Shown: positions 33,491 to 33,541 of the stretch, one piece after another
Layout: every line of letters starts with the position of its first letter
Position numbering within the stretch: position 1 is the stretch's first letter
NCBI GenBank assembly: GCA_019119235.1
Contig: DWXL01000008.1
Location: 1 to 44,747, forward strand
Direction: 5' to 3'
Length of the DNA: 44,747 bases
DNA from: Candidatus Blautia excrementigallinarum
GTDB taxonomy: Bacteria > Bacillota > Clostridia > Lachnospirales > Lachnospiraceae
Notes under the pieces: model-generated
Seen by the model: only the letters and a program-made list of their open reading frames with translations
What the model was told of the DNA's origin: nothing
Database searches by the model: none
Program-made: the position numbers and the translations under genes

Positions 33491-33541
33491 AAAAATCCCT
33501 GCAGAGAATGTCATAACAGTATATGACACTTCTCTGCAGGG
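33491..33541 (-). promoter_or_regulatory. Long hairpin over the ribosome site of the second PBP gene, with U-tract
   Basis: CCCTGCAGAGAA (33497-33508) pairs with TTCTCTGCAGGG (33530-33541) and, past one bulged base, TGTCATA pairs with TATGACA, giving 19 pairs around a 6-base loop. On the minus strand the 3' arm ends CTGCAGGG, is followed by ATTTTTT, and then the ATG. The same segment can thus work as a terminator and can hide the ribosome site. Confidence 0.8.

Follow-up and report, generated by a model that had tools for sequence, protein, structure and literature searches.

The dcw cluster of Candidatus Blautia excrementigallinarum lies on the minus strand of a 44,747-nucleotide stretch (contig DWXL01000008.1 of assembly GCA_019119235.1; the window, by which we mean the whole of the DNA analysed), in the order mraZ, rsmH, ftsL-like, PBP1, PBP2, mraY, murD, ftsW, murA and divIB. 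These names come from sequence and gene order, library searches having covered the penicillin-binding proteins (PBPs) and the FtsW-like and MurA proteins only. PBP1 and PBP2 are tandem genes for class B PBPs. The first (35854-33584; 756 amino acids, with a C-terminal extension) is presumably the growth-phase enzyme of FtsI type, and the presumed source of read-through into its neighbour. The second (33489-31759; 576 amino acids) is linked to sporulation; its best NCBIfam match is TIGR02214 (spoVD_pbp), at 540 bits against a cut-off of 688 and with the C-terminal part of the model unmatched, so we call it SpoVD-like only. Between the two is a long hairpin, which very probably acts as a read-through insulator with a built-in sigma-E promoter for the SpoVD-like gene.

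The hairpin between the tandem genes

The hairpin occupies 33541-33497 of the minus strand (5' arm 33541-33522, 3' arm 33515-33497, from local folding and covariation), and consists of 19 pairs with one bulged G. Its letters are CCCTGCAGAGAAgTGTCATA-TACTGT-TATGACATTCTCTGCAGGG, followed by A (33496), six T (33495-33490) and the ATG of the SpoVD-like gene (33489), a start codon backed by the N-terminus MKKNxTFHKKK, which is kept over same-genus loci. A first-pass annotation had described the stem, the AGGG at its end, the T-run and the ATG; that description stands, except that the stem ends at 33497 and a single A separates it from the T-run. The AGGG (33500-33497) forms the base of the 3' arm and is the sole Shine-Dalgarno (SD)-like sequence ahead of the gene. 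The local fold is far more stable than expected (-35.3 kcal/mol, where 200 dinucleotide shuffles average -15.6 +/- 3.0 and none does as well; z -6.6), and a stable G+C-rich stem followed by a U-tract is the form of an intrinsic terminator, although a simple terminator scan did not return it, probably because the bulge and the scan's loop limit rule it out. No known RNA was matched at the hairpin in an Rfam scan. The possibility of a repeat or mobile element was rejected, the hairpin sequence being present once in the genome.

We gathered 44 PBP2 loci from the same genus, and 80 named loci that overlap these and come in many cases from other Lachnospiraceae genera. Hairpin, T-run and start codon are found again across Blautia and in many of the other Lachnospiraceae loci, with the T-run retained in nearly all aligned relatives. 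In an alignment of 36 Blautia sequences the arms vary and their pairing is kept: 81.1% of pair cells hold standard pairs, and 14 of the 19 pairs have changes on both sides, the compensatory pattern that the first-pass annotation had proposed to look for. The covariation score (0.280) exceeds both that of shuffled alignments (0.185 +/- 0.011, none of 500 as high), a comparison inflated by kinship among the sequences, and those obtained when the partners were slid out of register (0.07-0.17), where kinship is equal. The hairpin is not chance, and sequence, fold and covariation alike support two further points made at the outset, that it has the shape of a terminator and that its 3' arm occludes the only SD of the second gene.

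The proposed promoter and its RNA

The same annotation went on to argue that expression of the second PBP would need the stem to be opened by some factor, there being no room for a promoter downstream of it. This overlooked the interior of the hairpin, where we propose a sigma-E-type promoter that straddles the 5' arm and loop, its transcript lacking the 5' arm. The -35 element would be TCATACC (33546-33540, with the ATA core at 33544-33542) and the -10 element CATATACT (33525-33518; CATATATT as the genus consensus), placed in the top of the 5' arm and the loop; from its position, transcription is predicted to start about 7 nucleotides further on, at 33511, within the 3' arm. Here the -35 has the ATA core of sigma-E promoters, and the -10, at 19 nucleotides from ATA, is of the CATACAnT type. 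Sigma-E itself is encoded in this genome (G000 C209; TIGR02835, 372.7 bits, above the cut-off of 348.6). In Clostridioides difficile the sigma-E -35 is likewise ATA (PMC3789822), and the Bacillus subtilis logo has a spacing of 12 +/- 1 between boxes of 8 and 10 nucleotides (PMC517825).

The CATA of the -10 is invariant in all 36 aligned Blautia sequences, the upper stem and loop motif CATANNNT is almost so, and 39 of 43 Blautia loci (discounting one spurious match, in L038) have ATA 19-20 nucleotides ahead of the -10, a layout found in 1.1% of dinucleotide shuffles and in none of 384 coding windows. Beyond Blautia, ATA with [CA]ATANNNT occurs in 40 of 48 other Lachnospiraceae loci, nearly always at spacing 14 (shuffles, 3%), and 36 of those 40 also have a significant fold. 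The -10 is unchanged while the arms vary, and it outlasts the stem in three loci with a decayed one (L025, L038 and L046), an indication that it acts as DNA. At L038, about 100 nucleotides have been inserted in the hairpin region upstream of the SpoVD-like gene, and a longer imperfect inverted repeat has re-formed around the kept CATATATT. The consensus -10 is also found ahead of spoIIIAA and spoIVA in Blautia. Upstream of spoIIIAA (L176-L205) it is immediately adjoined by TTGTCC, which we take to resemble a SpoIIID site (GGACAA) at the promoter.

Because the predicted start lies inside the 3' arm, the sigma-E mRNA would lack the 5' arm, and folding suggests what this would do. At this locus, the modelled energy needed to open the region from the SD to the AUG falls from 15.3 kcal/mol for read-through RNA to 4.3 kcal/mol for the RNA predicted to start at the sigma-E promoter (ACAUUCUCUGCAGGGAUUUUUUAUG), whose leader ACAUUCUCUGCAGGGAUUUUUU-AUG, taken with the first codons, has a weak fold of -4.3 kcal/mol. 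For 37 Blautia loci, opening costs average 19.6 and 6.7 kcal/mol; the mean probability that the SD is unpaired (0.07 and 0.24, respectively) distinguishes the two RNAs less sharply. By folding alone, then, the SD is paired in the long RNA and freed in the RNA from the gene's own promoter, as in sigG of B. subtilis and gene e of phage T4 (see below).

The following sequence of events may be envisaged. In growth, transcripts of the ftsL-PBP1 block would reach the hairpin, where many would terminate; those that passed it would have the SD of the SpoVD-like gene hidden, so that, as structure and conservation suggest, no SpoVD-like protein would be made. In sporulation, sigma-E polymerase would use the -35 and -10 elements, and the resulting mRNA, free of the 5' arm, would expose the SD for translation. 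Downstream, a sigma-A-type promoter (31731-31703, minus strand; TTGCGA-N17-TATACT, genus consensus TTGATA-N17-TATACT) lies before mraY (31667-30705, minus strand; identified from sequence and dcw gene order), the first gene of the downstream growth-phase block, and would restart transcription of the essential mraY-murD-ftsW block, so that silencing the SpoVD-like gene would cost growth nothing. This promoter precedes mraY wherever the SpoVD-like gene is present, scoring 9-11 of 12, against 7-9 of 12 in genomes without the gene. As an observation in its own right, it is strongly conserved across Lachnospiraceae, with flanking AAAAGCC/TT, and divides the dcw cluster into two transcription blocks. 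The cassette, as we read it, is an insulator with a sigma-E promoter, the SpoVD-like gene and a sigma-A restart.

Association with sporulation, and recurrence at other genes

PBP2, second of the two class B PBPs in this dcw cluster, is found alongside sporulation genes. Among 60 Blautia genomes, 41 have both the SpoVD-like gene and sigma-E, 15 have neither, three have the gene only and one sigma-E only (Fisher P = 2.3e-10), the exceptions all being draft assemblies. The same split in presence and absence was seen for spoIVA, spoIIIAA, yqfC and the gene for a TIGR04086 membrane protein, whereas a PBP1 homologue is present in nearly all 60 genomes, those without sigma-E included. Of 13 genomes that have neither sigma-E nor the SpoVD-like gene, 12 have PBP1 leading almost directly into mraY with no hairpin; in the thirteenth (locus L134, G018) a different, ordinary terminator hairpin with T8 stands between PBP1 and mraY, perhaps a relic of a lost cassette. 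In other Firmicutes, too, spoVD is known to have been lost along with sporulation (PMC10693644). In B. subtilis, spoVD, spoIVA and yqfCD are sigma-E genes (PMC517825), as are spoIVA and a YqfC-like gene in C. difficile (PMC3789822).

The first-pass annotation knew of no such dual structure within a dcw cluster. One is indeed present there, but it is not peculiar to that cluster: a promoter within a hairpin is also found at spoIVA (in many genera), at yqfC, and at genes for a TIGR04086 membrane protein and a VanY-like carboxypeptidase, the last two also represented in this genome (L286 and L259). The Blautia spoIVA hairpin reads CCCCCTGCATATATT...ATATGCAAGGGGGCATTTTTATG, and in other genera very different sequences give the same layout at spoIVA (e.g. 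ACCCCATTCCCATATATTTAGAACAAACAGGGAATGGGGTATTTTTATG, L414). When we required an opening cost of 12 kcal/mol or more and a relief of 6 kcal/mol or more, a strict filter, the layout was found at 21 of 30 yqfC loci, 20 of 29 TIGR04086 loci, and 12 of 30 Blautia and 18 of 30 other spoIVA loci. The filter's -10 pattern undercounts Blautia spoIVA, many copies of which read CATATANAT, and the start codon was wrongly picked in some rows, mostly lowering the counts; SpoIID loci, having no match at the family cut-off, were left out. We suppose that the same device arose, or was kept, at each of these genes.

Genus-wide, a pattern consisting of CATANNNT, GGG and TTTTATG matched 4.29 times per genome, against 1.33 for its reversed control, where sigma-E was present, and 0.87 against 0.73 times where it was not. 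In an unbiased hairpin scan of 1.2 Mb of stretches from one complete relative genome, the bare -10 motif was not enriched among all 123 SD-covering hairpins (8 forward, 10 reversed). Eleven starts had both an SD-covering hairpin and a T-run, and three of these belong to the sigma-E genes spoIVA, yqfC and spoVD-like, so that the link between the -10 and an SD hairpin appears only when the T-run is included. The other eight comprised a transposase, a recombinase and a ClpP-like gene, most of the remainder being start codons seemingly inside, or misplaced in, coding sequence. At the ClpP-like protease gene (G028:C2 at 309003; L251) the SD-covering stem AATACCTTCATG-AATGTA-CATGGAGGTATT directly precedes the ATG, without a sigma-E promoter.

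From this recurrence we lean, with rather less assurance than for the SpoVD-like locus, towards a rule for the Lachnospiraceae as a family: where a mother-cell sporulation gene is prone to read-through, its sigma-E promoter would be housed in a hairpin that covers the SD and often also terminates, thereby reserving translation for RNA started from that promoter.

Alternative explanations, precedents and meaning

Several observations weigh against the idea of an insulator with a built-in promoter. Three Blautia genomes, all drafts, have the SpoVD-like gene without a full-score sigma-E match. Not every sigma-E gene has the device, as spoIIIAA lacks the layout (1 of 28 under the strict filter). 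The modelled sigma-E leader is, on average, just partly open, as its mean unpaired-SD probability indicates. Two Blautia loci (L030 and L034) keep hairpin, T-run and promoter and use a separate SD about 60 nucleotides downstream; a few others have a decayed stem, among them the three named above in which the -10 survives; and Blautia parvula and two other loci (L091, L093, L103) have an ordinary, separate terminator ahead of the promoter. Finally, in C. difficile the expression of spoVD is reported to begin as sporulation sets in, earlier than sigma-E (PMC10693644), so that timing may differ among lineages.

Perhaps the most durable of the other explanations, though we think it improbable, is that nothing more than economy of space is involved, a plain PBP1 terminator and a sporulation promoter having come to overlap in a short gap, with no regulatory benefit. 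Intergenic gaps are indeed short (60-180 nucleotides), the 3' arms of terminators are G-rich and might incidentally serve as an SD, and the parts are separate in some relatives (L030, L034, L091, L103). On the other hand, the same overlay is found at five unrelated gene families, and four TIGR04086 copies (L382, L384, L385 and L392) retain the SD-hiding stem without a T-run, so termination alone is insufficient to explain the stem. Termination and SD hiding are thus separable in nature, as is seen in the other SD of L030 and L034, in these TIGR04086 copies and in separate terminators of the B. parvula type; the common outcome suggested by the sequences is that read-through would go unexpressed, and this we take to be the function.

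A little less probable still is recognition of the embedded promoter by a sigma factor other than sigma-E, whether sigma-K, which shares the -10, or sigma-A, with TATATT or TATACT as the -10. A sigma-70-type match (9 of 12) does overlap the site. The conserved -35 core, though, is the ATA of sigma-E whatever comes after it (ATAcc, ATAgc, ATAtc or ATAac) rather than AC; the genus consensus, GAATAC/GCATAC, has no position in common with TTGACA; and in B. subtilis the orthologues belong to the sigma-E regulon (PMC517825).

The view taken in the first-pass annotation, of a terminator or attenuator opened in trans by a protein, antisense RNA, ligand or translating ribosome, would account for a stable stem that sequesters the gene's single SD and has a T-run at its end. 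We consider it quite unlikely: the conserved letters are those of the promoter, whereas the arms conserve pairing and not sequence; there is no Rfam match at the site; and from the PBP1 stop codon to the -10 the distance ranges over 23-142 nucleotides, with no conserved upstream partner and no sign of fixed ribosome coupling. Given the proposed promoter, there is no need for an opening protein, an antisense RNA or a riboswitch upstream. An upstream riboswitch, T-box, antisense RNA or fixed ribosome coupling was rejected because the spacer varies in length and sequence. That the inverted repeat, long and overlapping a promoter as it is, might be a DNA operator for a dimer-binding repressor is very unlikely indeed, since the arms are free to change if pairing is kept, accept G-U pairs, and differ entirely between genes.

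The insulator with its own sigma-E promoter has partial precedents. Upstream of sigG (spoIIIG) in B. subtilis, a large hairpin, which RNA started at the sigG promoter is unable to form, has been proposed to block translation of spoIIG read-through (PMC5942855). The logic is the same, though in what could be consulted of that account it concerns one gene with a forespore sigma-F/G promoter, and a T-run and use at several genes, which are features of the Blautia case, are not described. Early read-through RNA hides its own ribosome site at e, soc, 49 and I-TevI of phage T4, the late promoters of e and I-TevI being located within the hairpin's 5' strand or beside it, which leaves late RNA free; for e, the early RNA is translated about 100-fold less (PMC3014915). 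These are phage late promoters, the block is translational only and no terminator tract is described. The tandem of FtsI and SpoVD genes in the dcw clusters of spore-formers, in which the sporulation copy is lost with sporulation, is treated, in the portion of the relevant work open to us, as a matter of gene content, and not of hairpin or promoter placement (PMC10693644).

Transposase and recombinase genes offer another likeness, in that their SD is hidden in read-through RNA, as at the IS256-type transposase and the recombinase gene of the 1.2 Mb scan, which parallel IS10 and IS50; those hairpins guard mobile elements from outside promoters and have no internal sigma-E promoter. Elsewhere in the window, near its start, an Rfam int-alpA RNA (RF02996; 1662-1733, minus strand) suggests the remnant of an integrative element. 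Phrase searches of the literature for promoters inside terminators found no paper, which is weak evidence that the arrangement is new, since most subscription journals fell outside their coverage. As far as our searches could show, what is new here is the fusion of an SD-hiding hairpin with the shape of an intrinsic terminator and a sigma-E promoter, reused across several genes and genera.

A single element of 55 bases would in this way combine promoter, terminator and ribosome site, and the point where an RNA starts would decide whether it can be translated. Growing cells always run the risk of read-through out of growth genes, and mistimed production of sporulation enzymes might damage them. 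It would follow that coverage of such genes by RNA-seq in growing cells need not imply translation. The signature may be usable for finding sporulation promoters in the little-studied Lachnospiraceae of the gut, and the element as a compact insulator for synthetic biology. If the family-wide rule is true, it describes not a curiosity of one gene but a modular insulator used throughout a developmental regulon.
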